Origin: a virus | IMG/VR virus record: IMGVR_UViG_3300035150_000015 | Coordinates: 1 to 64,000 of that record | Direction: 5' to 3' (one strand) | DNA: 64,000 bases | Shown: piece after piece, positions 11,707-57,986 of the stretch | Position numbering within the stretch: the first letter of the stretch is position 1 | Layout of the letters: each line of letters starts with the position of its first letter | Position numbers and translations under genes: made by a program | The notes under the pieces: model-generated | The model's database searches: none | What the model was told of the DNA's origin: nothing | Seen by the model: the letters and a program-made list of their open reading frames with translations, nothing else

Positions 11707-13242
11707 TCAAAGAGTTAGGTATCCGTCTTGTTCTAAACGATGCCTCAAGTAGTTCACATCTCGATAGGGCTCCGTCTCATATACCACAAAAAGACTTAGC
11801 GTAGGATGATTTTTCACCAAGTGAGCCTTGATCTTGTCATACTTCTGCGTACTCTTGAAGCTACGTTCCCCACCATAGAACCCAATAGGCTCCAGATGCT
11901 GGCGACCATGAAATTCCACCAGAAGTTGATGCTCGACAAAAAACCCATCATATCTGAATCTTCGGCCGGTTTCAGGATTCACAAAGTCAGGGGAACTCCA
12001 CTCCGAAATGTATGATTCCCCTAGTATACCGGCCAGCAGTTCTAAAACGAAGTGCTCAGCCACATTAGTATGAGATGTGAGTAAACCTAGCCTATCACAT
12101 TCACTACGAATGGTCACAAAAGGATGCCCCAAAGCAGCCATTGCTTTGCCCACAGAAACCTTGCCGTTCTTTAGCTTAAATGGTTCCAGCTGTTCCTCAG
12201 TCAAAGTGACTTTTAGGCCATTGGACCAAGTCCTCTTAGGACCCACCCAGGTCTTCAATTTCTCTGAAGTGTTCAGCAAACTGGGATGCTTCTCTTTGGT
12301 CAAACCCTTCGACCAAGAAGGTCTCCCTTTGCAGCTCTCTGACAATTGAGCCAATCGAGAGTCCGTTTCCTTCGTTAGTCCTTTGTTCCACCGGCCGGCA
12401 TTGGCAGCCATTTTAGCTTTGGTCTCTTCGGACAATGTCTTATCTTTGAGTGCAGTTTTGTCTCGAACAGCGGAGCAGAGAGCCACTACTCGACCAGGGT
12501 AACTCCCGACCAACTCAGGATGCCTGTTCTGTATGTGGCTGGTCAGATTCTCGGCCCTATGGCCGCACAAGATACACACCACATAGTCAGTCCCCTCCTC
12601 TTTCCCCTCCCATTTAGCCGATTCTCGGCATCGAAGGCACCTAGGATTGTGTGTCGAAGGGGCAAAGCTCCAACCCACCTCTCGGGATTCTCCACAGTCG
12701 GGGCAAACTATGATTTTCTTCCTCCCTGCTGTCGACTTAGCAGGTTGAGCTCTCTTGGCAGCCTCTTTTTGATGATTTTCACAACTCGTTGACCGAAGTC
12801 GGTGGCCCGGGTAAAGCTCGTAGTAGGTCTCTGCAGTAAGGCCATGGGTCCTAATATGACCGGTGAGGCCCTTCCCACGAGCTCCGCATACTTGACACAC
12901 CACGTAATCCTGTCCCTCAACCTGTCCTTCCCATTCATCAAAGTTTTGAACATAGGTCTGGTGTTCAGCGTCCTTAGCCCACCTAAGAAGATGGTTGGAT
13001 AGGCCCTTTTTGCCCTTGCACAATAGCCCACAAACAGGACACTTGGTATCCTTTCCCCGACAAGCAGGGCACAAAACTTCCTTAAACTTGGCTAACTGCC
13101 CCTTGGTTAGCTCTAAGGAAATTCCACATTTATCGCAGTGGGTCTCAACGAACGTCTTTTTCTTTGGCACCCCTTTAGTCCTACCCCCAAAATTGATGGC
13201 ACCCTCCTCCCTCATTCGTAGAGTGCGATCCCGAGGACCCAT
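11707..13242 (-). CDS. Zinc-finger/NUMOD3 homing endonuclease with Vsr-like or PD-(D/E)xK-type nuclease domain
   Basis: This 511-residue protein (ATG at 13242; GTG at 13251 also possible) has several CxxC zinc modules in its first 240 residues. Two are MucR-like fingers of the form YVVCxxCGxxxxxLTxHI. NUMOD3-like repeats follow at about 270-345 (SEETKAKMA, WNKGLTKE, WSKGLTKE, WSNGL). The C-terminal domain (about 393-514) has RYDGFF, LLVEFHGRQHLEP and a final VVYETEP segment. This resembles the freestanding EDxHD/Vsr-type endonucleases of phages. It is inserted between the sheath and helicase genes. The expected role is DNA cleavage for self-propagation (homing). The nuclease subfamily is less certain than the overall class. 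Confidence 0.85.
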   Translation of the reverse strand: MGPRDRTLRMREEGAINFGGRTKGVPKKKTFVETHCDKCGISLELTKGQLAKFKEVLCPACRGKDTKCPVCGLLCKGKKGLSNHLLRWAKDAEHQTYVQNFDEWEGQVEGQDYVVCQVCGARGKGLTGHIRTHGLTAETYYELYPGHRLRSTSCENHQKEAAKRAQPAKSTAGRKKIIVCPDCGESREVGWSFAPSTHNPRCLRCRESAKWEGKEEGTDYVVCILCGHRAENLTSHIQNRHPELVGSYPGRVVALCSAVRDKTALKDKTLSEETKAKMAANAGRWNKGLTKETDSRLAQLSESCKGRPSWSKGLTKEKHPSLLNTSEKLKTWVGPKRTWSNGLKVTLTEEQLEPFKLKNGKVSVGKAMAALGHPFVTIRSECDRLGLLTSHTNVAEHFVLELLAGILGESYISEWSSPDFVNPETGRRFRYDGFFVEHQLLVEFHGRQHLEPIGFYGGERSFKSTQKYDKIKAHLVKNHPTLSLFVVYETEPYRDVNYLRHRLEQDGYLTL

Positions 13243-13285
13243 GGTGATCACTATACACCACCATGGGTCTCCTCTAGGAAGGACC

Positions 13286-20478: not shown

Positions 20479-21516
20479 TTACTCCTCCTCTTCATACTCT
20501 TCCATAGCCAATACCAGCAAACCGGACGATACGGCAGTCAACGGATTAGTGGCGTGACGTACCTCAGAAATATCAATAGGGAAGTCCTTCTTGATACTTT
20601 CAAACTGGGCCTTGAATACATCCATGAACCCAGTGGCCAAACTCGTGCCCCCACTGACCACGAAGGGGATGGGGTCAGGGAGAGTAACATTCCCCGAGAC
20701 CTTCTTGAACTCAGACATGATTGCTTCCAAACAATAGTCAATGAGATTCGAGAGATAAAAGCCAATAGCCTCTTGCTCCCGAGAAGTGGGGTGGCCAAGG
20801 TCAGCTTCCTTCTCCTTGATGGCACAAATTTGGCTGGCCGTCTTGCCAGTAGCCTTGGCAGCACTCTTGTCCACCCAGTCTCCACCCCTAGCCACCGAAA
20901 AGCTCATGGCAATGCTAGCCTGGTAAAGTAGAGCAATGTTGCACATACCACTACCAAAACTCACAGCCAGACCCGAGAAATTGTCCTCGGCGCATTGGCT
21001 ATATACGATGGCCGAAGCCTCGTTCGTGGGATGCGGCGTATACCCATGAGTCTGGATGATTTTCCGGAAAACTTCCGTGTGATAAATGATATCCTGGTCT
21101 GGGTCATCCAACGGAGCTGCAGGTACACTGTAAAAACAGTGCTCATTGGAAATAGTTGGAGGCCCTAGAACCTTCTTGACCAGCAAACTCAAGATGCGCT
21201 GAGCATCGAGCTCCCCGGCGGAAATGACGCCCCGTTGGAGAGGCCTGCGAGCCTCACGACGGAAGAGATTGGCCATGGTCAGGGCGCTATCCCCAACGAC
21301 TACCAGGTTGTTTCCCTCCTGCACATAGTCCACCTTGGACAGCCTGAGGGATCGCTTGGCCGCCATGTCCAAATCCAAAAATGCGTCTCGAATCGGCGTA
21401 TGCTGCGGACCTTCGCTCTCGCTGCGGCGAGAGGAAATGATATTCATTGTTCCCACATCGAGCCCTACGCCGGGCAAATAATCGGATGGCCCCTTAGGAG
21501 CAGTTTTCTTACTCAT
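20479..21516 (-). CDS. Actin-like (MreB/ParM superfamily) ATPase
   Basis: This 345-residue protein has the actin-fold nucleotide motifs. Phosphate-1 is GLDVGTMN at 18-25. A phosphate-2-like VSFGSGMCNIAL lies at 185-196 (the usual Asp is replaced by Ser/Phe). ARGGDWVDKSAAKATG lies at 209-224 and the adenosine motif FVVSGGTSLATGF at 285-297. The C-terminus is strongly acidic (EEYEEEE). Relatives polymerise into filaments that segregate plasmids, shape cells or position phage DNA. The gene lies inside the virion block, upstream of the IsrB relic and downstream of the Dps-like gene, which is unusual. Family membership is clear; the cellular role is not. Confidence 0.85.
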   Translation of the reverse strand: MSKKTAPKGPSDYLPGVGLDVGTMNIISSRRSESEGPQHTPIRDAFLDLDMAAKRSLRLSKVDYVQEGNNLVVVGDSALTMANLFRREARRPLQRGVISAGELDAQRILSLLVKKVLGPPTISNEHCFYSVPAAPLDDPDQDIIYHTEVFRKIIQTHGYTPHPTNEASAIVYSQCAEDNFSGLAVSFGSGMCNIALLYQASIAMSFSVARGGDWVDKSAAKATGKTASQICAIKEKEADLGHPTSREQEAIGFYLSNLIDYCLEAIMSEFKKVSGNVTLPDPIPFVVSGGTSLATGFMDVFKAQFESIKKDFPIDISEVRHATNPLTAVSSGLLVLAMEEYEEEE

Positions 21517-23658: not shown

Positions 23659-26274
23659 TCAGAAGGTGATATTCTCCCAGACCACAGTTCGGCCTCTGCG
23701 CTCCCTTTCATCGGGGATCCCGGACTTGTCTGTGATTTGGGCCGGAGCAGTGTCCGGTGGAATCATAGGCGCCAGCTGGTCTGCCACATAACGGGCTACA
23801 TCGTCGAGGGGGACTCGATACCGGATGTCCTGTTCATCCAAATGCCCGATATTGAAATGCTGCTGTAAAATCATTCCCCGATTCGTGGGCATCCTCACGG
23901 CCCCGATCGAGTAACGCTCCCCGTTGATCTTCACAATGAAGTCCCGCTGGCTCACCAAAGGCCTGGGACCCATCCAAACTTCGTAGCTATGCTCAACAGT
24001 CCTGCCGGAATCTCTCTGTGTGATTCGACGCTCTCCGTCATCCGGAGCAATGATGATATCGTACGGGCCCTCAAATCCACCAAGTATCCCAGTGCCGAAG
24101 CAGTTATGTACCACTACTCCTTGAACAACATAAGTATGGTCACCTTCAACCTCAAGATTGTACACCAAGCCTTCGTAGGGGACTGTATCGATGGAACGAA
24201 TTTTAGTCAGCTGTTTACCCCCGTAGGCCCATCGACCTTTTCGATTGCTCTTCTGAAATCCAGTACCAGCCCAATTCACACAATAAGCCAACTTTCTAGG
24301 ATTTCCACTTGGTGCTGCAGGCCCCTTCTGTCTTCGAATCAAAGGCTGCTCACCCATTCGATGCAAAATCTCAGAGATCTGCAAAGACAGAATTTCTGAA
24401 GTCTGGGTAATTTCCGACCCGCCCTTCCATCCATCCCCATCGTAAATTCCTTGGAGAAGGAATCTCTGCTTATCAGGAGGAAGCCTCATAAACTCCTCAG
24501 GAATGTGCTTATTTTCACACCCACGCCCCAACCAAGTAGGAAACCAATCCGACAGATTCGAGCCATTCACATGAACCTGAACACCGTTTTCCCCACTTGG
24601 ACTGATGGATGAAGAATACCCATGATTCTTAAAGTAGGACGTTATCCTACTCTGGAAGTCTTTCTCTTCAGCATGAAGGGAAAAAGTCAGTGATCGAGAG
24701 CTAGAACTCCCTTCTGCCAGATACATACCCACGACCCAAAGGAAATCCTCCCCTACCGTGAAGCTAGTGGCACCTTGTCTCTCAGGCCCAAACTTAGATT
24801 GCTTGCGGAATTTCGAAGGAACTCCAATAGTATCCAGGTCCTCCACCACCGAAGGCCACTGAGAAACCAACCACCCACCTTTATTTAGTTCCTCTGCAGG
24901 TAACCATTCAAAAGAATGACACTTCTTGTGTTCTAGCCTATACGTACAAATAGCCTCTTCAGCTTCCTCTTTAGTGCGATAAGTGCCCAGACTTACCCTC
25001 ATCCCTCTGGTGCCACCCCCAACTCTAGCCCACCATCTACCACTCGGTAAAAGACGAACACTCGGGGGTCCTGAACGAAGGGTATCCTTCATTTCACCAC
25101 ATACTTTAGGCCCACAACCTAGAGCATTGTGATGATGCCCCACCAAAGAATAAAAGGGATGCTCTGGGGTCGCCAGAACAGGGTTGGCCGATACTGTCGG
25201 AAGAACTTTGATCAAATTACCCTTGAAGACTCTCTCGAATAGCTTCGTCACTCTCCGAAAGTCCCCCTTCGATGTCAGAACCTTTTCCCCCACTCGAATC
25301 TGATCAATAGGCTGATACCCAGATTCCGTTCTAACCAGAGACCCAGGAGGAAAACACAAAGTGCAGTCACTCTGGGGTTGCTTGTAGGAAACCTTTTGGA
25401 TGCAGTGACATTGCTGTCCTACGGCCTTCCGAAGAAAAGCTTTGACCCGCTCCCCGCCTTGAGCCAGAATCCACTGGTTTCTCCGAACCGCCTCACGCCA
25501 AATGTAGTCAAGCTTCTCGATCTCGAAATTACTGGTGGCTGCCGCGTACTCGAGAGGGGTCTCTACTAGGTCCTCCGGCTGAACTTCCGAGAGGGGGAGG
25601 TTGATTGGGACCCCGACCGTGGTGACACGGTAGAAAACCCGCTGAGACAAGTCCGTTCGAAGTAAAGAACGATTGTAGCGGTAAGTTACTGTTACCACAC
25701 TGTTTTCTTGTGGGACCACTGGAGTACTTAAAGACTGAGTGGCCACTTCTGGATACCAGTTGGGATCCAGCTCAATCTCCCCCGAAGGCCCATCGACACG
25801 AAGAACTCGAGCCTGCACCCCATCCACCTTGACAATGACCTCAGAAGCCCTGTGCTCCGGGACCGCTTGCGAGCCCGACTGCACAATGGGCCTTTGCTCG
25901 GTCCTGAAGACGTACCTGGGGGCGTCTAACTCACTGGCGGAGCACACCCCCCAGAGCACCCAACGGTCATCAGAGACGACCTCATCGACCACTACAACAT
26001 TGTCCGTTTGGTCCCTCCAGAAGATAGCTCCCACCGGAAGGTCTGTGATCCTCTCAAAGGGGCCGTACTCTGAATCGAAAGACCGATAAATATTGACCCC
26101 GTAGATAGAGAACCGTGAATTCAGAGCCAAAGAGGAGGGGTCATCCCACACCAAATCATACACCCCCGCCAAATACCCACTCGTTAGGAACAGATTGAGA
26201 GGGGGAACAGGCCATGTGACTTTCTCAAGCTCGAGTTGGTCAATTGGCCGGTCTCGATTCGTAGCGTATGGCAT
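23659..26274 (-). CDS. Virion structural protein interrupted by a cis-splicing LAGLIDADG intein
   Basis: The precursor has 871 residues. Residues 1-306 and 725-871 are extein (453 residues after splicing); residues 307-724 are an intein. The N-extein contains beta domains with an IVKVDGV...SGEIELDP unit like modules in the sheath protein, and a CHC plus DCTL cysteine cluster just before the intein. The first C-extein residue is Cys725. Splicing would create QSDCTL-CFGTG, completing a CxxC/CxC zinc-type site. The C-extein has IIIAPDDGERR and RDFIVKINGERYSIG segments typical of beta-rich neck or tail proteins. The protein lies between two groups of tail genes; its exact role is unknown. Confidence 0.85.
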   Translation of the reverse strand: MPYATNRDRPIDQLELEKVTWPVPPLNLFLTSGYLAGVYDLVWDDPSSLALNSRFSIYGVNIYRSFDSEYGPFERITDLPVGAIFWRDQTDNVVVVDEVVSDDRWVLWGVCSASELDAPRYVFRTEQRPIVQSGSQAVPEHRASEVIVKVDGVQARVLRVDGPSGEIELDPNWYPEVATQSLSTPVVPQENSVVTVTYRYNRSLLRTDLSQRVFYRVTTVGVPINLPLSEVQPEDLVETPLEYAAATSNFEIEKLDYIWREAVRRNQWILAQGGERVKAFLRKAVGQQCHCIQKVSYKQPQSDCTLCFPPGSLVRTESGYQPIDQIRVGEKVLTSKGDFRRVTKLFERVFKGNLIKVLPTVSANPVLATPEHPFYSLVGHHHNALGCGPKVCGEMKDTLRSGPPSVRLLPSGRWWARVGGGTRGMRVSLGTYRTKEEAEEAICTYRLEHKKCHSFEWLPAEELNKGGWLVSQWPSVVEDLDTIGVPSKFRKQSKFGPERQGATSFTVGEDFLWVVGMYLAEGSSSSRSLTFSLHAEEKDFQSRITSYFKNHGYSSSISPSGENGVQVHVNGSNLSDWFPTWLGRGCENKHIPEEFMRLPPDKQRFLLQGIYDGDGWKGGSEITQTSEILSLQISEILHRMGEQPLIRRQKGPAAPSGNPRKLAYCVNWAGTGFQKSNRKGRWAYGGKQLTKIRSIDTVPYEGLVYNLEVEGDHTYVVQGVVVHNCFGTGILGGFEGPYDIIIAPDDGERRITQRDSGRTVEHSYEVWMGPRPLVSQRDFIVKINGERYSIGAVRMPTNRGMILQQHFNIGHLDEQDIRYRVPLDDVARYVADQLAPMIPPDTAPAQITDKSGIPDERERRGRTVVWENITF
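24103..25356 (-). mobile_element. Cis intein with LAGLIDADG endonuclease and AP2-like domain
   Basis: The 418-residue intein starts at Cys307 (CFPPGSLVRTESGY, block A) and ends with VVVHN before Cys725 (block G). Block B is ATPEHPFY and block F is VYNLEVEGDHTYVVQG. The endonuclease has both LAGLIDADG motifs (WVVGMYLAEGS near 512-522 and LLQGIYDGDGW near 607-616). Between block B and the endonuclease, residues about 403-450 read like an AP2/ERF-type DNA-binding domain (GRWWARV...VSLGTYRTKEEAEEA). The intein should self-excise, and its nuclease should cleave intein-free alleles. Confidence 0.9.
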
Positions 26275-27077: not shown

Positions 27078-27707
27078 TTAGAACCCAATGAATTTACGGG
27101 GGGTCAGGACCCCAGATCCGGTGTGCGGCCCAAAGGCCGAACGTATCCCGATCCCATATCTAGGCTGCTGGAGCCCTTTGACAATCTTGACCGTCTGCTT
27201 GGCCCGCTCAAGCTGCTTGTCGAACTGGTCACTCATAGCCTGATACAGACTCTCGTACTTCGAGCTCTTGTCGATATCCAGTGAAACCCCTCCAATGGAG
27301 TACGAATTATGAGCTACAATGCCATTGGAAAGCACAAAGTTTTCCGGCCCAGGTACAGAAAGGTCATAGGAATTCTCTAAAGGATCGAGCTCCTCGGTGA
27401 GCAAAACTGGCTGAGAAGTCAATTCACCATCCAACACCACCGCCAATGAATCCCCAACTTTGAACTCATCAGTCAGAGTCTCCTCCAAAGTCCCATCTTC
27501 AGTCACTCTAAAAAGACTGTGATCTTCTGTGGCCACTACTTCCCCGGATTCAACAGTTACCCGGAAAGCCTTTTTGTGGGGGGTGCGATGTTTGAGCACA
27601 TCTCGTACCTTATGCCAATTAACCTTTCCATCAATTTCTACGGACTGGACTTCCAAATGTCCACACTTAAAGGCCTTTTTTATAGCACTTTTAGTCTCTT
27701 GATCCAT
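27078..27707 (-). CDS. Third piece of a three-piece structural protein: C-intein 2 plus C-extein
   Basis: Residues 1-134 are the C-terminal part of a split intein. They include an N-terminal lead-in helix (KSAIKKAFKCGHLEV, NWHKV), block B VATEDHSLFR, and block F/G ending SNGIVAHN. Residues 135-209 are extein, starting with Ser135 (SYSIGGVSLDIDKSS). The end is AFGPHTGSGVLTPRKF, which I remember from intact phage structural proteins. The partner N-intein is the last 31 residues of 28619-29359. Splicing would join WVADEF to SYSIGG. The start overlaps the end of the endonuclease gene by 17 bases. See the finding on the doubly fractured gene. Confidence 0.9.
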   Translation of the reverse strand: MDQETKSAIKKAFKCGHLEVQSVEIDGKVNWHKVRDVLKHRTPHKKAFRVTVESGEVVATEDHSLFRVTEDGTLEETLTDEFKVGDSLAVVLDGELTSQPVLLTEELDPLENSYDLSVPGPENFVLSNGIVAHNSYSIGGVSLDIDKSSKYESLYQAMSDQFDKQLERAKQTVKIVKGLQQPRYGIGIRSAFGPHTGSGVLTPRKFIGF

Positions 27708-28714
27708 GACAGGCCTCCTGAACTTGGCTTATACAGCCTTCTAAGTCTCCCCTAATAGAACACTCCTTCAACCGAACGACCTTCCAGCCCCTTTTCTCAA
27801 GGTAAGTCTGTTTCCTGATGTCCAAAGAGGCCATCTTAGGCTGAGGGGCATACCCACATTCAGTACACCCGTGCCAATAACAACCATCGACCTCTACCGC
27901 CACACGAAGTTCTGGATTAGCTTCATCTATCTCATAATATCCTACACGATGCTCTGTGAGGAAATCTCTTACCCCAGCTAAGTCTAGAGCCGATTTGAAT
28001 TCCAGGTGAAGTTTTGATGTCTTGGAATGATGTCTCCGAGCGTGGGCTGCCGAATCCAAAACGTGCTTCCGATTGTTCTCGACCCACTGCCTCTGCTTCT
28101 TTCTGAATGCAGGGTCTTCCCACATACGTCTGCTGCGCATTGAAGCAGCTTTTTTGAACTCTGGGTCCTGATTCAGAGACCTGAGGTGGGCAGCGGCCCT
28201 CCTCCCATACTCCCCAGCCTGCATTCTTTTAGAAGCCTCAGATATCTGCTTTTTGGTCTTCTGGCCAGCCTCTGTCTGAAACCTAGCCCTTAAGACCTCC
28301 GATTGATGCTCCTTCTGATCTTGGGTTTTGGCTATCCGCCTAGAGCAGAAATTAGATACATAAGTAGCATCGGGGTGTCGCATCTTATAGGCAGCAAGAG
28401 AATAACCACTACACATTTTCAAGTGTTTAGTGGTCAAGATAGAGCAAAAAGCTCCACACTCTACACACCGAACGTAATGCTCGCCCTCCACCATACAATG
28501 TGAGATAACGTCTACCTTATTCCTGAGACCAGAAGTCACCCTCACTGAAATCGCCCCCTCACCCACTAAGGAGTCGAAGGTCCTACTATTTAGGCCAAAC
28601 TTCAGCAGAAATTGACGTTTAGTCATTGCAGATAGAATGTAGGTCCTGAAGGCTGATGTCAATCTCCCCCAGGTCTGGAGTCCGAACTCTCACTACAGAA
28701 TCCCCGGAAAGTGA
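27306..28714 (-). mobile_element. Split intein cassette 2 (N-intein, Vsr-like endonuclease gene, C-intein)
   Basis: The cassette runs from the Ser codon at 28714-28712 (Ser218 of the middle gene, block A SLSGDSVVRV) to the last Asn codon of the C-intein (27308-27306). It contains the whole endonuclease gene 27691-28626. If removed, the reading frame of the middle extein continues directly into the C-extein. This is the 'fractured gene' arrangement described by Dassa and colleagues (2009): split intein halves flanking a freestanding Vsr-like nuclease. An N-intein Ser at position 1, rather than Cys, is unusual but known. Confidence 0.85.
27691..28626 (-). CDS. Freestanding Vsr-like (EDxHD) homing endonuclease with zinc finger
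   Basis: The protein has 311 residues from ATG 28626, which overlaps the stop of the upstream N-intein gene by eight bases (ATGACTAA). The in-frame start at 28662 would overlap more. It has an N-terminal HTH-like part (RQFLLKFGLNSRTFDSL) and a MucR-like zinc finger (YVRCVECGAFCSILTTKHL). A basic linker with repeated PEFKK/PAFRKKQ-type elements follows. The C-terminal Vsr-like domain has VAVEVDGCYWHGCTECG and GWKVVRLKE. Such nucleases cut intein-free target alleles. Its location between the two halves of split intein 2 supports a homing role. Confidence 0.87.
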   Translation of the reverse strand: MTKRQFLLKFGLNSRTFDSLVGEGAISVRVTSGLRNKVDVISHCMVEGEHYVRCVECGAFCSILTTKHLKMCSGYSLAAYKMRHPDATYVSNFCSRRIAKTQDQKEHQSEVLRARFQTEAGQKTKKQISEASKRMQAGEYGRRAAAHLRSLNQDPEFKKAASMRSRRMWEDPAFRKKQRQWVENNRKHVLDSAAHARRHHSKTSKLHLEFKSALDLAGVRDFLTEHRVGYYEIDEANPELRVAVEVDGCYWHGCTECGYAPQPKMASLDIRKQTYLEKRGWKVVRLKECSIRGDLEGCISQVQEACHGSRD

Positions 28715-29359
28715 AAACTCATCGGCTACCCAGTTCATCATCAAGGCAAAGATAGCGTGAAGCATGGCCCCATTCAGCAAGAGGGTCCTCCAGTCTGGAT
28801 AGCATCTAATCATAGACTGACAATTCGTGAAGACCGTCCGAGGGGGAGCCGCAGAAATCATGTCCAGAGACCTCAAGAGATACTCTTGGAGCTCGGCATC
28901 CTCCCAGATGTAACCAAATACCCGATTGAACTGCGAAACAGTGGTTTCGTGGGCAGGTGGCCTGAAGTGGTAGTTTCTATCGGGGGAATTTGATACAAGC
29001 ATCCCAGATTTCACCAGGAAAAAATTGTGCCAATCCTCAGCGGTAAGGTCATACATATACTGACGGGAAGGCAATCTCCTGACAGACACCACCGAAACCC
29101 CAGAAACCGAATCCCCCGAACAAAGCTTCTCCGCCTCAATCTTACTTGTAGGGGTGAGGAATACTCGGTGTCCTCCCGTGAGTACAGAAACTCCCTTAGA
29201 AGTAGCAACTTCTACTATGGTTTCAGGGCCTACTTCCGACCGACTGACTTCAAGAACCTTCTTCCAATCCAACTGTCCATCAGGCCCACAAGACTTCACC
29301 CTAAGCTTACCAGAAGCATAGGCAGCTCGAATTCTATCTCGTTGTACTTCGTTCAACAT
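28619..29359 (-). CDS. Middle piece of a three-piece structural protein: C-intein 1, extein B, N-intein 2
   Basis: Numbered from the TTG at 29365, residues 3-126 are a C-intein (NEVQRDRIRAAYASGKL lead-in, block B LTGGHRVFLT, block F/G ending MLVSN). Residues 127-217 are extein (SPDRNYHFRPPAHE to MMNWVADEF). Residues 218-248 are an N-intein (SLSGDSVVRV to DLHSICND). The ATG at 29359 is the likely start. The extein matches remembered intact phage proteins in which RDN-NPDRNYHFRPP and WVADEF-SYSIGG are continuous. The penultimate intein residue is Ser rather than His. This polypeptide must be spliced at both ends. Confidence 0.9.
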   Translation of the reverse strand: MLNEVQRDRIRAAYASGKLRVKSCGPDGQLDWKKVLEVSRSEVGPETIVEVATSKGVSVLTGGHRVFLTPTSKIEAEKLCSGDSVSGVSVVSVRRLPSRQYMYDLTAEDWHNFFLVKSGMLVSNSPDRNYHFRPPAHETTVSQFNRVFGYIWEDAELQEYLLRSLDMISAAPPRTVFTNCQSMIRCYPDWRTLLLNGAMLHAIFALMMNWVADEFSLSGDSVVRVRTPDLGEIDISLQDLHSICND

Positions 29360-30336
29360 TTCCAAAATCTTTCTCGGTCAGAATTCGGAAGTCCCACCCT
29401 TGATCAAAAGCAAAAGAAGAAGCTTGACGAAGACGCTTCCGAATCTTGTGTTCTTCAGGCAGCTCCAGCACCCAACTGGCCTTCACCTCTATCAAAACCA
29501 CTCCACTTCCATACCGAACCACAAAGTCTGGGAGAATCCACCGGCCACCCGGAAGTTCCAGTCTGGGTTCAAAATGATACTCCAGAACCGAAGTGTCTGA
29601 GTCTAATATCTTGACCACGACCCTTTCGTAGCTACTGCGGGTCCAGATTGGAGACCGAGAACACTTCTCGGGGGTCACCCAGGCTCCTCTTCCACGACAC
29701 CATTTCTCAGGGGTCTTCAGCATCCTTTTAGTTTGAGCCTCAGAGCGTTCTCTTCTGGTTTCCTCAGAACGATGATAATCCAGGAGGGCTTTCCGGAACT
29801 CCGGATTCTGCCATCTCCGAAGAGCCGACTGATGTCTCCTCTCCTTCACCTCCGGACGAAGAGAAGCCAACCGAAGGGTTTCTCGTTCTTGTTCGGAACG
29901 AATACGACCTCGGTGAAAGTCGAAGGAACCTGATGCCCATTGCAACTTCAACTGGCCAGACAGCCAAGGTTTTTTCTCTCCTTTTCTAGCTCTACCAACC
30001 TTCGCTGCACTCTCTCGACGATTTCTCCGAGAAGCCTCATTCCACATCGCACGAGTGCCCCTTTGAATAGCCCCTAAAGAGAGGCCAGTCACTGCGATCA
30101 TATGGTTCCAACTCATACCCGAAAGATGAAGTTCGGTGATGATATCTCGACGCTTCTCAGTTACCCAATGTAGGTCTTTGGGCAAGCGACCTTTTCGAGA
30201 GAACAACTCCCAAGACAACCCATGCTTCTCAAGAAGGGGTATCAGTTCCGTGGATGGTTTCGAAGAGCTCACGGAGGGATACTATCATTTTTCCCCCATC
30301 CACATCAAGCTCAATCTCCTCTTCTCCCCCAAGGCA
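28988..30336 (-). mobile_element. Split intein cassette 1 (N-intein, PD-(D/E)xK nuclease gene, C-intein)
   Basis: The cassette runs from the Cys codon at 30336-30334 (Cys131 of the first gene, block A CLGGEEEIELDV) to the final Asn codon of the C-intein (28990-28988). It encloses the complete nuclease gene 29334-30272. Removing it joins LLRDN to SPDRNYHF in frame. Its intein halves are recognisably related to cassette 2 (same short N-part, same lead-in helix in the C-part), but its nuclease is of a different fold. Confidence 0.85.
29334..30272 (-). CDS. Freestanding PD-(D/E)xK endonuclease in split intein 1
   Basis: This 312-residue protein starts at GTG 30272, overlapping the N-intein gene end by 44 bases; its end overlaps the next start by 26 bases. 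The N-terminal part (about 35-80) looks like a helix-turn-helix (HLSGMSWNHMIAVTGLSLGAIQRG). A long basic linker with NUMOD-like short repeats (WQNPEFRKALLDYH) follows. The C-terminal domain (about 212-300) has YERVVVKIL, YHFEPRLELPGG, ILPDFVVRYG and VVLIEVKASW, giving the D-x(n)-ExK arrangement of PD-(D/E)xK nucleases. It probably mobilises cassette 1, filling the role that Vsr-like enzymes play in other fractured genes. Confidence 0.82.
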   Translation of the reverse strand: MSSSKPSTELIPLLEKHGLSWELFSRKGRLPKDLHWVTEKRRDIITELHLSGMSWNHMIAVTGLSLGAIQRGTRAMWNEASRRNRRESAAKVGRARKGEKKPWLSGQLKLQWASGSFDFHRGRIRSEQERETLRLASLRPEVKERRHQSALRRWQNPEFRKALLDYHRSEETRRERSEAQTKRMLKTPEKWCRGRGAWVTPEKCSRSPIWTRSSYERVVVKILDSDTSVLEYHFEPRLELPGGRWILPDFVVRYGSGVVLIEVKASWVLELPEEHKIRKRLRQASSFAFDQGWDFRILTEKDFGNVERSTTR

Positions 30337-30726
30337 ATTGTCTCTCAGGAGGATCCTGAGCCTCCGCATCATATCCGTTTCACAGTCACTGTAAAGAGTC
30401 ACCAAGTTTGTGGCTTTGTCGATGACCTCGAACTCCTGGACCACCTGATGCACGGGTCCGCCAACCAACTCCCGGAAAGTCCAACGAACCCGGTAGGATC
30501 CAATATTGGCATCCAGAGGGATGATGATCGAGGCGTAGTAGTGCCCAACCGAGGGGTTGACAGGTGTGCGATGAGGGACTCCCAAAAGAACCTCTAACCC
30601 GGTCGTGAAATCGTAGAGGGCATAGGTAATTTCGGCCGCATTGGTAGGGTGTCCTGAACTGTTGTCCAAGTAAATGTTCAGGTCCTCGGCGCCTAGTTGC
30701 TGACCTCGGTAAAACGCTACGGACAT
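30229..30726 (-). CDS. First piece of a three-piece structural protein: N-extein plus N-intein 1
   Basis: Of 165 residues, 1-130 are extein and 131-165 the N-intein (Cys131, CLGGEEEIELDVDGG to IHGTDTPS). The extein has an Ig-like domain (ITYALYDFTTGLEVLLG, SVGHYYASIIIP, SYRVRWTFRELVGG, QEFEVI) similar to those in 31302-32054 and 32511-32906. It ends with the helix CETDMMRRLRILLRDN. In intact homologues, as I recall them, this helix is followed directly by the RNYHFRPP segment found in the middle gene. A 35-residue N-intein is much shorter than the usual ~100 and matches atypically split inteins such as AceL-TerL. Confidence 0.9.
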   Translation of the reverse strand: MSVAFYRGQQLGAEDLNIYLDNSSGHPTNAAEITYALYDFTTGLEVLLGVPHRTPVNPSVGHYYASIIIPLDANIGSYRVRWTFRELVGGPVHQVVQEFEVIDKATNLVTLYSDCETDMMRRLRILLRDNCLGGEEEIELDVDGGKMIVSLRELFETIHGTDTPS

Positions 30727-31301: not shown

Positions 31302-32054
31302 TCAATTCCACCCATACTTTCTGCACCGAACCGTCGCATCCATTGGGTCATTGGCCATGACTGCGTCCAAAACCCTGAAAGTCATCTCTTTGGTCTGAGC
31401 CTTGAACTGAGGGCTCTCCTGGTATTCCCAGACTATAACCCAATCACCGGGCTGCCCGAGCTCCCCGGCCCGGCCCGTTGCATAGTACTCCCCCACGTCT
31501 CCCTTCACCGGGAGTCTAGACGGACCCACTTGAAAACGTGTGCCATTAGGCCTTTTTTGGTAGAGGGTATAGACCACCCTCACCGGTGATACAGGTCCAG
31601 CTGCGTCCCTGATGTAGATTGCCAGGTCACCCCTTTGAAAAAACTCCATGTACCGGAAACACTTCGAGGGACATGTGGTAGCCCCATATACCGTGTGGGT
31701 GTAAACACCCAAAGAGCCATATAGCCAGGAATCCCCCACAAGAGGTAACGGGTACCACCAAAGTAGCTCGCTGCCCCCTGACAATCTTCCGGAGAGACGG
31801 ACTATTCGATCCAGACTACCAGAAACCTCACCTACCCCGTCCAGGATCCCTGCGAGGTTTTCCGGGAGAACGGGAGGATCCGCCTCTATGCCACCGATTC
31901 CTTGAAAGGTGCCAAATAACGGTTGGATCAGACCAACGGTTCCTTGTTCTGCTCCGATGGTCCCCGATCCCTCAAAGAAAACTTGGAACAGACTGAGAGT
32001 ACCCTCTAGACTAGAGGTCCCTTCTAGACCACCCTGGAACGGAATTAGAGCCAA
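31302..32054 (-). CDS. Structural protein with glycine-rich repeats and Ig-like C-terminus
   Basis: This 250-residue protein has a first 90 residues rich in Gly/Leu with a degenerate pattern of the type LxGxGxxxGxxxG (GLEGTSSLEGTLSLF, GTIGAEQGTVGLI). A CPSKC pair follows, then an Ig-like segment (DLAIYIRD, RVVYTLYQKRPNG, GEYYATGRAG, GDWVIVWEY, EMTFRVLD). That segment is clearly related to the extein domain of 30229-30726 and to 32511-32906. It is probably a neck, baseplate or fibre-attachment component. Start ATG 32054, one base before the upstream stop. Confidence 0.72.
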   Translation of the reverse strand: MALIPFQGGLEGTSSLEGTLSLFQVFFEGSGTIGAEQGTVGLIQPLFGTFQGIGGIEADPPVLPENLAGILDGVGEVSGSLDRIVRLSGRLSGGSELLWWYPLPLVGDSWLYGSLGVYTHTVYGATTCPSKCFRYMEFFQRGDLAIYIRDAAGPVSPVRVVYTLYQKRPNGTRFQVGPSRLPVKGDVGEYYATGRAGELGQPGDWVIVWEYQESPQFKAQTKEMTFRVLDAVMANDPMDATVRCRKYGWN

Positions 32055-36818: not shown

Positions 36819-37671
36819 TCATAAAAGGAAACTGGCATCCTCGTACCCCTTCCGTCGCATCTCCTTCACCTTAGAAGGAGAGAAGTCCAATGAATCTTCA
36901 ATTAAAACGCAATTCGGCCGCTGGACCCGAATTTTCACGTTCTTGTAGGAACCGTTCAATACGGCCAAATCATTCTTCAATCCGGCCTCCCGAAGGTCTC
37001 CTCGAATAATCTCATCCCCCATTAAGTCCACAGCCCTCATGGCTCGTGATAAAGCATTTTTCTTTTTTGAGTCCCAGACCCTACGGAGGTCAGGGTTTGA
37101 ACACAAGATCACATCAATTTCCGTAGCCCCGGCTCGGATGGCCGCTCCCAAGGGAGCTACATTCCGAATACCGCCGTCAGTCCACTCTTCCCCATCCAAC
37201 TTGATGGGGTTAAGAAAGGCCGGAAAGCTAGACGAAGCAAGGACCCAATCGGCCAACCTCTCAGAATTCTCGGTGGCCAAACAATAGTCGCCAGTGTTCC
37301 AGCTAACCGCCCCAATTCTTACAGATCTACCCGAATTCCTAATTTTGGAAACATCGAGCTCAGACTTGACCCATTTTTCAAGAGGAGCAGAATTGTAGAC
37401 TGAGGGCTTCCAGAGAGCGGCCAAATACCACCCAAACCACCACTTACGAATTTTCCTGTTCTCAACCCGATTCCAGATTCTATCTAGGTACTCGTAGGCC
37501 CTCTCAGGGTCCCCAAGCGGAGCTTGAGAAAGGGCCGCCGAATTGAGAGCCCCGACCGAAACACCGCAGACAATATCATAGTCCCGCTTATCCTCTAGGA
37601 GCCACTTCTGAAGAACCCCGACTTCATACGCACCTTTGCTTCCCCCCGCCTCCAAGGACCAACGCTCTCAT
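36819..37671 (-). pseudogene. Patatin-like phospholipase with a one-base frameshift near the N-terminus
   Basis: The body (279 residues from 37655) has the patatin features: glycine-rich oxyanion loop GGSKGAYEVG, nucleophile elbow GVSVGALN, and DGGIRNVAPLGAAI with the catalytic Asp. These enzymes are serine acyl hydrolases (lipases). The expected start is ATG 37671, with an AAAAAGGTG Shine-Dalgarno upstream, reading MRALVLGGG. It enters the oxyanion loop out of frame because the C-run at 37642-37647 (G6 in the coding strand) has one base too many for the canonical loop. A frameshift, an assembly error in a homopolymer, or a weak internal TTG start near 37655 are the alternatives. Apart from this the gene looks intact. 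Confidence 0.78.
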
Positions 37672-49526: not shown

Positions 49527-52013
49527 CTAGGTCTGCGATCTTTTCCGGAAATAGCTTTCGTCCTTAGCCAATCCAGACCTGAGTAGTTTTTCCCTCCTTC
49601 TGTGCTCCGGGCAACAGTACGTCATAGAATTCTTAGGAGAAGTGTCCGTAAAATCAACTCCACAGTAACGATACCCACACTTTTTGACCCTGCCCTCAAG
49701 ATCCTTAGCCTCCCTACAGGACGGACAATACTTGAAGTTGCCTAATTTCTCAGTTTCCCATTGAGACCCACACAGAAAACAGGTAAACTTTCTGACCCCA
49801 GAGACAGGGTGCTTTTCCCTTAAAACCCGTCGCCTATATCGAGCATAACAGGCAGCACTGTGAAAGTTAGCCGACTCAGTGGCCGACTTGAACTCAATCC
49901 CGCACCCCTTGCATACACGAAAACTTCCTTTCGGAGTCAAACAACCTTTACATAGCCCGGAAGTCAGTGACTTGAACGGGGCCACCTTTCCACAAGAAGA
50001 GCACGATGAGATCCTCTGGCTGCCCCCATAAGAGGTGTTTGGCAAAGAATAGCAGACACCTTTCACCCAGCACAGAACCGATTCAGAACGGGATTCTGTA
50101 CCAGGGCTAGGCAAGTAATAGAGTAACTTCTCCGCCCTCCCCAAACCCAACTCAGCCACCAGTCGAAGAGTATCCTCGACCAACGGGTAGTCACGATCCC
50201 AAAGTCTGAAATCGTCTACATTGACTACAAGCCATCCCCCGGACTTGAGAGCCAACACACTTTTCTCTAAGACCTTTCTCCAAAAGAGGTTCAACCAATC
50301 TTCGTAAGTACAGTACTCTTCCCGACACCAATAAGGAGGTGAGGTCAGGACCATGTCCACATTCTCAGGAAATGTGGCTTCCTCGGACATCTCACACCGA
50401 ATGTCAACAGTACCTTTCAAGTCTGGAAGGTACTGCCGGACCCAATCATTCAAACGAAGCAACCCAGCATGAGTCTCCGTAGAAGGGTCATACCCTACGT
50501 AGTTCGCTTGAGAGTTAGATAGCAATGTACCCAAAAGACGGCCACCATACCCAGCACAAGGGTCTAAGACTGTGCCCCCCGTACAACAGAACCTGTCCAC
50601 CAGAGCCTTTGCTGCCGAAGGCCTGAAATTGTATACCCCGGATCTTTTCCAAAGCCTTAGAGCAGCCCGCATTCTAGCAGGGTTAGGAACATCCCCAGAT
50701 TTCAGTATGAACCGAATCAGCTCTCTGAGTTGAAGGGGGTCCGAGAATAACTCTCGGGGGCTAGGGGCTCTGAAACTACTAGCCGACCAAATATGCTTCA
50801 TGATTCCCTGACAAATACCTTGGCCGGCCTGTCTGGCTTTGATTGCGCCATCTTGGATGACATGAGAAGGGTCAAGATTAAGTAGAACAGTGAGCTCTTC
50901 CGGACGGGGGACATGATAGGGAAATCCCGTTTCCGACCAAAACTTGAAGAATGCTTCCACGAGTACCTCTTTACCAGAGTCGTCTAATGTAGGCCATTGT
51001 TTCACTTCAGCTACCAAGCCACTAGGTACCAAGGACTCATTTGTACGCACTGGCTGACGAGCAATAGCCCCTCTCCAATACTTAGCCGGGAACTTGTAGA
51101 GCATGTCGGGAGGGGCGTGCTCCCGAATCATCTTGAAAAAGGCGTCGGCTGAACGGGCACGGATCCCTAGTCTCTGACAAGTAAGGCATACAGGACATTT
51201 GGAATAGACATCCAAATTGAATCGGTTTCCTACTATACTCAGTACAGACCTGAGTTCTTTTTCATCTACATTCCCCAAAGCTATTGTAGGCAAACCATCT
51301 CCCAAATGACCGTCGTCGAAGTACCAGTAAGCAAGGGACCTTGGAGTGAGCTCCTTCAGGATGGACTCCGGAAAGATCCGAACCCCCTCAGGATAAAAAA
51401 TGGATCGCATCTTACGCAACCACTCATGCTGAATTGTCTGAAAGCCAAACCCAAACGTCAGACGACCGTTCTTCATCTCCTTCTCCGCATACCGAATGGG
51501 GAGAGCGTGAGGAGAAAGAAGCTTATGTAGATGCCTGAGGTAGTCTATCTGCTCCTGGTAATGAGACACCTTGAAGACCCCCCTCTCCAATAAATGACCA
51601 TCCCCAAGAAGGACCCCTATGAAAGCCTCTTTCTGCTCCTCAGTCACCTCCTCATGAGAAGTTGACCGGTCACTCTTAGTCAAGGCAGGAATCCCGAATT
51701 CTTTCAGCTTAACTGAAATCGTTGGTTTGCTCACCCCGTAAAGAGCCCCTATCTCCCTCTGACCGAGAGAAGAGTACAAATCAGCCAACTTAGCAGGGGT
51801 TAGATCATCCAGGACTGGTTGACCCGGACGTTTGGCATCCCTTCTCTGTCTCAAAGAAATCGAAGGAATCCCGTACTTCCTTCGAAAGTAAGAAACGGCC
51901 ACATCGGACATACCCAAAAGGACTCCTATCTCAGCATCCGTATGCTCACGATACAGCTCTTCCAGGCGCTCTTTGGTCAGCCCTACTTCTTTAGCTCTGT
52001 TCCTACGTGCCAT
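49527..52013 (-). CDS. LAGLIDADG homing endonuclease-DNA methyltransferase-zinc ribbon fusion
   Basis: This 828-residue protein has four parts. Residues 1-112 carry two HTH motifs (DAEIGVLLGMSDVAVSYF; QREIGALYGVSKPTISVKL). Residues 128-330 form a two-motif LAGLIDADG nuclease (AFIGVLLGDGHL; AYWYFDDGHLGDG). Residues 400-655 form an adenine/cytosine-N DNA methyltransferase (VLDPCAGYGGRLLG motif I; VLTSPPYWC motif IV; LKSGGWLVVNV). Residues 668-828 have several CxxC zinc modules. A nuclease and a methyltransferase in one chain is unusual. I infer either a selfish restriction-modification/homing device or a methyltransferase carrying an inserted homing nuclease. It lies between the fibre and capsid genes. 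Confidence 0.86.
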   Translation of the reverse strand: MARRNRAKEVGLTKERLEELYREHTDAEIGVLLGMSDVAVSYFRRKYGIPSISLRQRRDAKRPGQPVLDDLTPAKLADLYSSLGQREIGALYGVSKPTISVKLKEFGIPALTKSDRSTSHEEVTEEQKEAFIGVLLGDGHLLERGVFKVSHYQEQIDYLRHLHKLLSPHALPIRYAEKEMKNGRLTFGFGFQTIQHEWLRKMRSIFYPEGVRIFPESILKELTPRSLAYWYFDDGHLGDGLPTIALGNVDEKELRSVLSIVGNRFNLDVYSKCPVCLTCQRLGIRARSADAFFKMIREHAPPDMLYKFPAKYWRGAIARQPVRTNESLVPSGLVAEVKQWPTLDDSGKEVLVEAFFKFWSETGFPYHVPRPEELTVLLNLDPSHVIQDGAIKARQAGQGICQGIMKHIWSASSFRAPSPRELFSDPLQLRELIRFILKSGDVPNPARMRAALRLWKRSGVYNFRPSAAKALVDRFCCTGGTVLDPCAGYGGRLLGTLLSNSQANYVGYDPSTETHAGLLRLNDWVRQYLPDLKGTVDIRCEMSEEATFPENVDMVLTSPPYWCREEYCTYEDWLNLFWRKVLEKSVLALKSGGWLVVNVDDFRLWDRDYPLVEDTLRLVAELGLGRAEKLLYYLPSPGTESRSESVLCWVKGVCYSLPNTSYGGSQRISSCSSCGKVAPFKSLTSGLCKGCLTPKGSFRVCKGCGIEFKSATESANFHSAACYARYRRRVLREKHPVSGVRKFTCFLCGSQWETEKLGNFKYCPSCREAKDLEGRVKKCGYRYCGVDFTDTSPKNSMTYCCPEHRRREKLLRSGLAKDESYFRKRSQT

Positions 52014-55020: not shown

Positions 55021-57984
55021 CTACGATCCTAGGTCGTAAAGTCTCCCTTTTGTAATTAGGGCGTCCCTCTCGGAGCCCTGCAGGTCTCTACCAATCACCC
55101 GCCGACAAGCGGCGAGATAGCTATTCAGATCCTCGTAAACAGAAAAACCGCCGACACTTACTACGGTTTTATATATTCTGGATTCACCTGCGATCCTCGG
55201 CGTATCCGTGAACTCATCAAGGAAACGAGATACAGCCAGAATCTCTGTTCCGTTTAACCGGCCAGAGGCTTGTACGGCCCTCCAGCCGCCATTCTTGTGG
55301 AGTAGAAGACCATACAATACCTTACGCGCCAATACACAATTAGGTATTCTAGACCCCACCTTCTCAGCAATCATTCTCCAAGAAGCATTCTTGGTGAAGG
55401 CCTCCTTGATGAGAGTCTCGTTAAGGTTCTCATCCAAAGTTGGGTTTTCCCCCTTCCCAATCTGCTCCCGAACCTTCTCCACAGCTTTTTCCCTGAGGAA
55501 CTCAGCTAGGTCCCCGACAGCCTGGTCCAAAGGATCGTCCTCGGTCTTCTTCTCTTCTTTGGGCTCACCACCAAATTCCCCACCCTCACCAAAGTCGAAG
55601 CCTTCCTCACCAGCCGCAGACAAAAGGCTGGCGGCCCTCTGGAAGGCTCCCAAGTCGGTCACTCGGGCAGCTTGTGAGAAGGCCACCTGAACCTTGTTCC
55701 GGATCTGTTTTATTTCAGAGGGGGTCAAAATATTGCGCAACACAGCCCCAGTGAAGGCTGGGTGAGCTACCCAACTAGCTTCGATGAACTTGACGCTATT
55801 TGGGTCAGATCGGTGACCACAAAGCTCAGCAATTTTACGTTTGTTGCCCAGGCCATCCAAGTAGGTCTGGCCCTTCATATAGCGAATATGTGGGCAATTA
55901 TGGACCGCCACCCCCTCTACAACATATGAATGGTCCTCTTCAACCCCAACATTATGCACTGGACCAGAATACAGCTCCGAGAATACCCCCCTGACTCTGT
56001 AGACAAACCAGTTTCCAACTCGCTTAAATCCACCATTAGTTAGCGAGGCCATTGTCACCCGAGCTGTTTCTCGATCTTCAAACCGAGCTTCTCCTGAGAA
56101 TCCAACAGGCTCTGGACAAGTTACAGAAAAACTTGGGAGCCATCCTCTTTGATCACGGATCGTTACTGACCCGTCCCCGTTCACAACCTCCTGAACAGTG
56201 GCGAGCTTACCTCCAAAGACGATAGCTCGACGAGCATACATCTCGCAACGAGCCGCAAGCACGTGCATTTGGCTACACAAGTTGAAAGAAGCCGTGTTTC
56301 CCCGAATACCATTAGCATTCTGGGTTCCATCTCCGCCAAGCCAACATTTGAGTACGTGTGCTTGAACACTAGAAGGCCACAACATCACCTCTCGAGAAAG
56401 TCGCTTAGCACTTGCATATTCCCCACAATGCCTGAAGAAAAACGCAGCTGCTTCCTGATCCATAAGTCGGACAGAACATGAGGACCCATTATCATAGATT
56501 CGAGGGAGGACATCGTGACAAGCCTCTTGAACCCAACAACGACCACACACCTTGCATTTATAGCAGTCGTCCCGACCAGGTTTGAATCTAGCGTTTAGGG
56601 CATATTCTGAAGGAGCCTCACATGAAGGACATGATACCTCTTCAGGTATTGAACGACTCGTTGACCGACGCTTAACTTGCTTGGTCCCTCGCTCCTGAAC
56701 GAGCTGTTTCCACTGCACCGACACTGGACGGCGTTTTCGTCCAAAGACTTCAGACAAGAGCCGAGAAGTTTCCTCTACCAAAGTAGTACGTTCATGAGAA
56801 CCAAAATCAAAACTCACCCCCACAAGCTCACCCTTACGCTTGATAAACGAGCCTTCAGCCGCGAAATAACCAATCAATCGGGCCTTTTCAATTGTAGCAT
56901 CAGTTGTCAACACCTCACCCTGAGGGATTGGGAACGCAAGGTAATCTCCAACTCGGATATCCTGAGCTTCCGTGAAATCAAACTTCACCTCGAACAAATT
57001 CCGCCACTCATCGAGGCTCACCACATCCCGAGAAGGGTTCGGATTTCGAAGTCTAGTGTTATGACCCGGTAGAAACCGACGCCTGAATGCCTTCTGACTC
57101 CCACGCTCATGTTCAACAGTTCTTTGTAGGGACTGACCACACCCGCAAGCACATTCGATCTCTGGACGAAGCACCCAGTAAGGGTGATCAGGAGTAGACA
57201 TCAACTTAGATGGAACCCCTTCGACATCCAAAACACTGAGTGAGCCTTCATGATGACTACTCATCACTTCCGTCACGGCACGAGCATTGCCCTTGTGGGT
57301 GATCAGCATATCGCCCACAACCACATCTTCAATCGGAACATATGTCCCATCTTGACGAAGCACTCTGGTGCCAGGAGGGAAGCAAAGTTGGGTTTCGTCC
57401 TCGGCCACATTCCCACACTTAGTGCAGGTCGTATGGCCGACCTGGCAGCCCATAGACATGGTCTGAACTTGTCTGGACTGAATCGCAGCCACCAAAGGCT
57501 TGTGTTTCAGAGCCGTGGCCACCAGGATATCAACATAGACAGAATCCCCAATATCCCTGGCCGCCGCATCAATGATTTTGCCCTTGGAGAGCTCGGGAAT
57601 TTGTAGATGCTCTACGTAGTTTTCACCCCCAATGAAAGTCTTGTAAGTAGCTAAAAGTAAACGCCTCTCCCACGCATCAAAATTGTTATTTATAAAACTC
57701 TGAGTTCCAGGGGTAATCAGAAAGTCCCCAAACTTCCGGTCAATCTCGAACCCGTCAATCATCTGCCGTCCCAGAGGGAGACCTGACTCCTCGGTATCTA
57801 CAGAAGCGATAATTGTAGCGTGGCTCAAAAGATATTCCTTGGGGTCATACTTCTGGATGACCTGAGAAGCCTTTTTACTGAAAAAGCCTTTTCCCGAAAG
57901 GGCTTTAGCCCTCACTTCATCCCACACCGGAAGTTTGACATCCGGTTGGATTACAGTGGCATTGGCATAACGCAAAAAGGCCAT
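55021..57984 (-). CDS. Prohead protease interrupted by a cis-splicing LAGLIDADG intein
   Basis: Numbered from a GTG at 57990, residues 1-202 and 699-989 are extein (493 residues) and 203-698 intein; ATG 57984 (residue 3) is the likely start. The extein has ENYVEHLQ (a candidate catalytic His), VQTMSMGCQVGHTTCTKCG (candidate Ser) and PHIRYMKGQTY, as in phage head maturation proteases. The intein sits at a cysteine of the zinc-type cluster following the active site. Splicing gives DETQL-CPHIR. The C-extein has a long Glu/Lys helical region. Without splicing, protease and head maturation should not be possible. Confidence 0.86.
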   Translation of the reverse strand: MAFLRYANATVIQPDVKLPVWDEVRAKALSGKGFFSKKASQVIQKYDPKEYLLSHATIIASVDTEESGLPLGRQMIDGFEIDRKFGDFLITPGTQSFINNNFDAWERRLLLATYKTFIGGENYVEHLQIPELSKGKIIDAAARDIGDSVYVDILVATALKHKPLVAAIQSRQVQTMSMGCQVGHTTCTKCGNVAEDETQLCFPPGTRVLRQDGTYVPIEDVVVGDMLITHKGNARAVTEVMSSHHEGSLSVLDVEGVPSKLMSTPDHPYWVLRPEIECACGCGQSLQRTVEHERGSQKAFRRRFLPGHNTRLRNPNPSRDVVSLDEWRNLFEVKFDFTEAQDIRVGDYLAFPIPQGEVLTTDATIEKARLIGYFAAEGSFIKRKGELVGVSFDFGSHERTTLVEETSRLLSEVFGRKRRPVSVQWKQLVQERGTKQVKRRSTSRSIPEEVSCPSCEAPSEYALNARFKPGRDDCYKCKVCGRCWVQEACHDVLPRIYDNGSSCSVRLMDQEAAAFFFRHCGEYASAKRLSREVMLWPSSVQAHVLKCWLGGDGTQNANGIRGNTASFNLCSQMHVLAARCEMYARRAIVFGGKLATVQEVVNGDGSVTIRDQRGWLPSFSVTCPEPVGFSGEARFEDRETARVTMASLTNGGFKRVGNWFVYRVRGVFSELYSGPVHNVGVEEDHSYVVEGVAVHNCPHIRYMKGQTYLDGLGNKRKIAELCGHRSDPNSVKFIEASWVAHPAFTGAVLRNILTPSEIKQIRNKVQVAFSQAARVTDLGAFQRAASLLSAAGEEGFDFGEGGEFGGEPKEEKKTEDDPLDQAVGDLAEFLREKAVEKVREQIGKGENPTLDENLNETLIKEAFTKNASWRMIAEKVGSRIPNCVLARKVLYGLLLHKNGGWRAVQASGRLNGTEILAVSRFLDEFTDTPRIAGESRIYKTVVSVGGFSVYEDLNSYLAACRRVIGRDLQGSERDALITKGRLYDLGS
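55897..57384 (-). mobile_element. Cis intein with LAGLIDADG endonuclease and zinc clusters in the protease
   Basis: The 496-residue intein starts at Cys203 (CFPPGTRVLRQDGTY) and ends with GVAVHN before Cys699. Blocks: B MSTPDHPYW, F VHNVGVEEDHSYVVEG. The LAGLIDADG motifs are ARLIGYFAAEGS (near 370-381) and VLKCWLGGDGTQ (near 546-557). It also has CACGCGQ and CPSC plus CYKCKVCGRC clusters, probably DNA-binding zinc modules. Splice residues are canonical, so self-splicing is expected. Confidence 0.9.
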
Positions 57985-57986
57985 TC

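Follow-up and report, generated by a model that had tools for sequence, protein, structure and literature searches.

A head-tail-connector-like gene of large tailed phages is broken into three genes by two split inteins, with a nuclease gene in each gap

Organization of the locus

The IMG/VR virus fragment IMGVR_UViG_3300035150_000015 (104,443 bases), of which positions 1–64,000 were analyzed here (the window, 64,000 nucleotides), contains a gene for what looks like a head-tail connector that is distributed over three minus-strand genes: the first ends with an N-terminal intein half (IntN1), the second is enclosed by a C-terminal half (IntC1) and another N-terminal half (IntN2), and the third begins with another C-terminal half (IntC2). 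At both sites the two halves are located in separate reading frames, and the two gaps are occupied by different homing-type nuclease genes (HE1 at site 1 and HE2 at site 2; Table 1). The initial annotation had placed an N-intein with Cys131 at the end of gene 1, a C-intein, an extein and a second N-intein in gene 2 and a C-intein at the start of gene 3, and all of this proved exact to the base. Gene 2 starts with either ATG 29359 or TTG 29365; the first residue of IntN2 is Ser218, as annotated, when counted from the TTG, but residue 216 when counted from the ATG. Removal of 30336–28988 and 28714–27306 fused, as had been noted, all exteins in a single frame of 296 residues through the junctions LLRDN-SPDRNYHF and WVADEF-SYSIGG. 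The two split inteins, however, are arranged in tandem and are not nested, as they had been called.

Table 1. Genes and intein-related features of the doubly split locus in the window
Feature	Positions	Strand	Length	Description
Gene 1	30726-30229	-		130-residue N-extein and 35-residue IntN1 (Cys131)
N-extein	30337..30726	-	130 residues	aligned end-to-end with residues 1-130 of intact homologues
IntN1	30232..30336	-	35 residues	Cys1, CLGGEEEIELDVDGG...
HE1	29334..30272	-		stand-alone gene for a putative TnsA-like PD-(D/E)XK nuclease; shares bases with the last part of IntN1 and the first part of gene 2
Gene 2	29359-28619	-		124-residue IntC1, 91-residue middle extein and 31-residue IntN2
IntC1	28988..29359	-	124 residues	block B TGGH; block F/G YDLTAEDWHNF...VSN; +1 Ser
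Middle extein	28715..28987	-	91 residues	aligned with residues 131-221 of intact homologues
IntN2	28622..28714	-	31 residues	Ser1, SLSGDSVVRVRTPD...
HE2	27691..28662	-		stand-alone gene for a DUF559/Vsr-like nuclease; shares bases with IntN2 and with the first part of gene 3
Gene 3	27707-27078	-		134-residue IntC2 and 75-residue C-extein
IntC2	27306..27707	-	134 residues	block B TEDH; block F/G YDLSVPGPENFVLSNGIVAHN; +1 Ser
C-extein	27081..27305	-	75 residues	aligned with residues 222-296 of intact homologues

All reading frames of the three-gene locus are open. The overlap amounts to 26 bases between HE1 and gene 2 and to 17 bases between HE2 and gene 3, the latter being preceded by a Shine-Dalgarno-like AGGAGG; since the nuclease genes overlap their neighbors on both sides, a coupled translation with the flanking genes is suggested. 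A chimeric assembly as the source of this layout was ruled out by independent contigs of different sequence sharing it (loci L101 and L124; relatives are given by L numbers).

Large phages contain many group I introns, according to one report (PMC12363816), and the inserts might by analogy be RNA introns with nuclease genes that are spliced at the RNA level. The probability of this is practically negligible: no group I or II match was obtained even at E 1 and no intron family was found in the inserts at Rfam thresholds, the sole match, which was rejected, being a chance hit to U3 at E 0.9, and the intein blocks encoded at the insert ends share the reading frame of the exteins. The gene order also speaks against RNA splicing. 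In relative L126 (4992–6430) the gene for IntC2 and the C-extein lies directly upstream of the gene for the N-extein, middle extein and IntN2, without a nuclease gene, and with the C piece upstream of the N piece neither a cis nor an RNA route can rejoin the pieces.

Intact homologues and likely role of the host protein

Viral contigs were searched with the joined sequence of 296 residues, and a profile search recovered 135 relatives, of which 80 were kept. Seventy-seven loci were intact, duplicates included, and 67 distinct intact sequences were counted; both extein junctions run gap-free through the intact homologues. This bears out the statement in the initial annotation that the junctions are continuous in intact phage proteins; intact homologues spanning all three exteins, proposed there as a check, turned up in large numbers. 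The phages with intact homologues are mostly jumbo phages, since their contigs reach 536 kb. No cellular homologues were detected by a pattern scan of 84,980 genomes, and there was no second intact copy of the split gene in the 104-kb record.

Of 34 intact homologues, 10 matched the head-tail connector family phrog_17327 (best E 1e-4), and the homologue in the isolate phage Tunturi_5 is annotated as a head-tail connector. Portal, head protease and major head protein genes are spread along the window, which places the split gene in a structural region. No sequence relatives of the extein protein were found in the PDB by profile search, and the fold search gave weak matches, including a siphophage portal adaptor (8gtd) and an injection device (4v96), all with E > 1e-3 and a low template modeling (TM) score, so that an assignment of function by fold was set aside. 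Altogether, the joined protein looks like a head-tail connector, an assignment of moderate confidence, and its N-extein would be the beta-sandwich part of such a protein, as read from the phrog_17327 matches and a structural model. A gene upstream of the locus (31302–32054, minus strand) encodes a 30% identical copy of the beta-sandwich domain of the N-extein, and the same paralogue is also present upstream in many relatives.

Identity of the intein halves and their two families

IntC2 was recognized by TIGR01443 (E 1.2e-8, 34.9 bits at a cut-off of 15.6) and PF14890 (E 6e-12, 46 bits at a cut-off of 35.8), and IntC1 by PF14890 at E 8.5e-7, which is below the cut-off. Both have the block B TxxH and a block F/G ending in Asn, followed by Ser at +1, where class 1 split inteins have Cys, Ser or Thr. 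Homologues of IntN1 occupy the same position in 17 other phages, all starting with Cys, and those of IntN2 in 20 other phages, all starting with Ser; Cys serves as the block A nucleophile in all 18 inteins at site 1, and Ser in all 21 at site 2. In these inteins the IntN is 29–43 residues long and the IntC is long. In the cis versions of the site-2 intein IntN2 is joined directly to IntC2, and one of these, from L016, was modeled in place of the window's split pairs: it was predicted to adopt a HINT fold with a predicted local distance difference test score (pLDDT) of 96 and a Foldseek E of 1.6e-10, with a TM score of about 0.8 to solved mini-inteins and a fold similar to that of 9hth and 6vgv. 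The intein halves, which were to be verified by alignment, were thus corroborated by profiles, phylogeny and the predicted fold of a contiguous relative.

In a tree of 40 inteins, a branch with 100/99 support separated all 18 site-1 inteins from all those of site 2. The same division was obtained with site-specific profiles, from whose training each of the seven double loci was left out when scored: every N-half and C-half scored best against the profile of its own site. In the window the own-site and other-site scores were, respectively, 59.6 and 11.7 bits for IntN1, 157.0 and 40.3 bits for IntC1, 39.5 and 4.0 bits for IntN2 and 137.0 and 54.4 bits for IntC2; two N-halves, that of L105 at site 1 and that of L016 at site 2, were told apart by a small margin. 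It is strongly supported that the two inteins represent distinct lineages, one per insertion site, which is a kinship of sequence and not a measure of functional orthogonality. Because of these distinct lineages each half is expected to pair with its own partner.

Crossed pairing in part, with IntN2 and IntC1 producing a cyclic middle peptide and IntN1 and IntC2 an N–C product without the middle, is unlikely: the middle gene does have the IntC–extein–IntN layout that is used to make cyclic proteins, and the two inteins have a common fold and are about 25–30% identical, but their halves fall into two clearly separate families, single-site phages keep either intein without the other and no function is indicated for the crossed products. 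It is also quite unlikely that cognate pairing yields the full protein while the crossed products, the N–C form and the cyclic middle peptide, are used or tolerated as a protein-level alternative splicing. If true, the connector would be an obligate three-polypeptide product with a choice of partner between split inteins.

Nuclease genes in the gaps

The HE1 product reached 26.2 bits against the TnsA-like N domain PF08722, just below the cut-off of 26.5, and its homologues occupy the same place in other site-1 phages. The label 'head closure' attached to HE1 by phrog_218 was rejected, the family being taken as a mislabeled nuclease family. HE2 was recognized by PF04480 (24.8 bits, cut-off 20.6), by the Vsr models weakly (Vsr, E 0.006; TIGR00632, E 1.5e-4) and by the families phrog_13076 (endonuclease) and phrog_3339 (homing endonuclease), and genes 40–44% identical to it are present in L013, L014 and L067. 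The site-1 gap of 1313 bases in L097 (4171–5000) has no recognizable HE1 homologue and probably holds another type of nuclease.

Occupancy of the two sites among the relatives

The occupancy was established from scans with both C-intein families and the middle gene, followed by locus mapping. The three-gene break, with both sites split, was found in the window and in L092, L101, L102, L105 and L124. A split site 1 was combined with a contiguous site 2 in L016 and L166, and in L100 with a contiguous intein inserted elsewhere, at a third site within the C-extein. Only site 1 was split in, among others, L015, L023, L090, L091, L093, L096, L097, L099, L104, L106, L155 and L170, and only site 2 in, among others, L013, L014, L067, L116, L118, L121, L122, L125, L127, L130 and L134, while contiguous inteins were present at site 1 in L162 and L165 and at site 2 in L086, L128, L132 and L208. 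All states were seen: empty, contiguous mini-intein, split with and split without a nuclease. The break outlives the nuclease, since L102 has lost both nuclease genes and L092 retains remnants; remnants are present in L096 as well. The doubly occupied state required at least six changes on the extein tree and thus has repeatedly arisen or been lost. The third-site intein of L100 (3221–3694) falls within the site-2 family in the tree, and it appears to be a site-2 intein that has moved to a new position.

Mobility, the +1 residue and constraint

The +1 residue is Ser, Cys or Thr in every occupied allele. In contrast, in empty alleles it is Asn in 53 and Ser in one of the 60 readable sequences at site 1, and Asp in 51 and Ser in two of 65 at site 2. 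This skew indicates that the catalytic residue arrives with the intein or is required for it, and a spliced product would differ from the protein of an empty allele by one residue per junction.

Between the loci L014 and L016 the identity is 98.5% as far as site 1 and 99.7% over the C-extein and beyond, but it falls to 81% in the middle extein and 79% in IntN2; the start of IntC2 is also replaced in one of them, and the replaced tract begins some 45 bases before site 1. The pattern is read as a gene conversion of the kind left by co-conversion during homing. Between L166 and L170 the synonymous divergence (dS) was 2.2 in the N extein and saturated in the middle and C exteins, in contrast to only 0.04–0.13 in the site-1 cassette, indicating that the cassette moved between already diverged phages. 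Comparison of the split, nuclease-containing L105 (5740–6740) with the contiguous L166 (5240–5310) revealed that the nuclease gene has been lost from between two AGGAG boxes, which presumably served as ribosome-binding sites, one for the nuclease and one for the C-piece. The old start codons persist as relics in the fused L166 intein; thus, split inteins can turn contiguous again by a small deletion.

The ratio of nonsynonymous to synonymous divergence (dN/dS) of the exteins, where measurable in the doubly split pair L101/L102, was 0.02–0.07, and the invariant extein positions hold. These values, together with the open frames in the window and a state common to six phages, make it highly improbable that mobile elements have ruined the gene and left it decaying and without function, as the nuclease remnants in L092 and L096 might suggest. 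The IntC domains had a dN/dS of about 0.1 between close pairs, which argues against another alternative, namely that ligation does not take place and the pieces come together non-covalently, with inteins that are inert or do no more than cleave off. One phage ribonucleotide reductase that a nuclease has interrupted reportedly functions as separate peptides (cited in PMC10448857), and some intein block residues are non-standard here; however, all catalytic positions critical for ligation, including the +1 nucleophile wanting in empty alleles, are kept in every occupied allele, and for the cis versions at both sites splicing or breakage are the sole options. Unligated pieces are, on balance, very unlikely.

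Proposed assembly of the protein

With the layout, intact homologues, two intein families, catalytic residues, constraint and mobility traces all read directly from the sequences, the recurrent doubly fractured gene is considered real, and it is most likely rebuilt by two trans-splicing reactions. The interpretation in the initial annotation is thereby supported, and those of its refuting conditions that sequence data could address all turned out favorably. Splicing is deduced from the conserved catalytic residues, the ongoing constraint and the intact homologues. A connector-like gene of a large tailed phage has been invaded at two sites by cassettes, each consisting of a short IntN, a stand-alone nuclease gene and a long IntC. 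The nucleases would cut empty alleles in co-infecting phages, with the repair copying the cassettes in; the conversion tracts and the horizontally moved cassettes stand behind this homing step. Each insertion would split the protein, resulting in three polypeptides expressed from one run of overlapping genes. IntN1 of the N piece would then pair with IntC1 of the middle piece and IntN2 of the middle piece with IntC2 of the C piece, and two class 1 trans-splicing reactions (Cys1/Ser+1 and Ser1/Ser+1) would excise both inteins, giving a continuous protein of 296 residues. This scheme as a whole, from the double invasion to the two cognate reactions, is held to be very likely.

Several points weigh against it. 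By themselves, IntN1 and IntN2 are too short to be detected by family models, IntC1 carries Ser at the penultimate position, where His is usual, and Glu replaces the usual block-F His in IntC2. Confidence in the extein model is low (pLDDT 72, predicted TM score 0.44), because of which the connector assignment stays moderate. Finally, the permuted gene order was found in one contig only and is supporting, not decisive.

Comparison with known systems

Fractured genes with one break, in which the gap between the halves of a split intein holds a free-standing nuclease gene, in many cases related to Vsr, were reportedly described by Dassa and colleagues in 2009. The present locus is similar in having a phage gene broken by a split intein and a stand-alone nuclease gene in the gap, here in both gaps. 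To our knowledge, the reported fractured genes have a single break, belong to enzymes of DNA metabolism and are split mostly at the classical endonuclease site, whereas here there are two breaks, three genes and a connector-like structural protein; each intein is broken close to its N-end, and the two nucleases are unrelated. The double break is a variant of the known fractured genes, the two breaks and the structural protein being what is new. Tandem trans-splicing with two inteins of separate lineages has, as far as we know, so far been a laboratory design only, and the loci described here suggest that evolution has reached it repeatedly. The initial annotation was not aware of such an arrangement, and the literature yielded no report of a gene that split inteins divide at two places, which is weak evidence as subscription papers were mostly outside the search; the arrangement is not unique, however, being shared by at least five more phages.

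Atypically split inteins with a short IntN include PolB16 OarG (PMC10189870), Aes123 PolB1 (PMC11923092) and VidaL. The inteins described here resemble them in the short IntN, the long IntC and, in some, Ser1, and differ in the host gene and in the presence of two families together in one protein. The joining of three segments by two orthogonal split inteins corresponds to the engineered tandem trans-splicing (PMC12707363; PMC7090010), which is a laboratory design, in contrast to the natural and recurrent case here. Phage genes interrupted more than once include nrdA and phoH of Campylobacter phage IBB_35 (PMC3322345) and the Jug-phage nrdD in four fragments (PMC12363816), and phage genes with two inteins or several introns are reported in PMC3653736 as well. 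The IBB_35 and Jug-phage genes are described there as containing inteins or group I introns, and the comparison is by description only; some of the reported multi-interrupted genes might prove to be double fractures on re-inspection.

The relatives display the empty, contiguous and split states, the latter with a nuclease and after its loss, in one gene, as well as re-fusion at ribosome-binding sites, insertion at a third site and, in one case, a permuted order of the genes. With all stages present in one gene, the origin and reversal of split inteins become directly testable. Protein engineering could also draw on the group for many natural pairs that are candidates for orthogonality and whose N-halves are very short.

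Other inteins, nucleases and neighboring genes in the record

A neighboring gene just downstream of the fractured one (23659–26274) carries a contiguous intein with a LAGLIDADG-like domain (CFPPGSLVR...VVVHN-C), and another contiguous intein (CFPPGTRV...GVAVHN-C) interrupts a head-maturation-protease-like gene (55021–57990), both on the minus strand. Outside the window, the record (G000) contains two more intein-bearing minus-strand frames at 67856–69187 and 97717–99012, over 1,100 residues; with these two, the 104-kb fragment holds at least six inteins. The remaining frames of interest are all on the minus strand of the window. An 828-residue frame (49527–52013) has a LAGLIDADG_2 nuclease domain and a weak match to a DNA methylase, and a 514-residue frame between two other genes (11707–13251), which matches the ROS/MUCR-type zinc finger and has an extended C-terminal part, resembles a free-standing homing-type nuclease. 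The structural region also includes a gene with a strong match to volactin, an actin-like protein (20479–21516; PF25216, E 2e-69), and one for a patatin-like phospholipase (36819–37655; E 8e-29).

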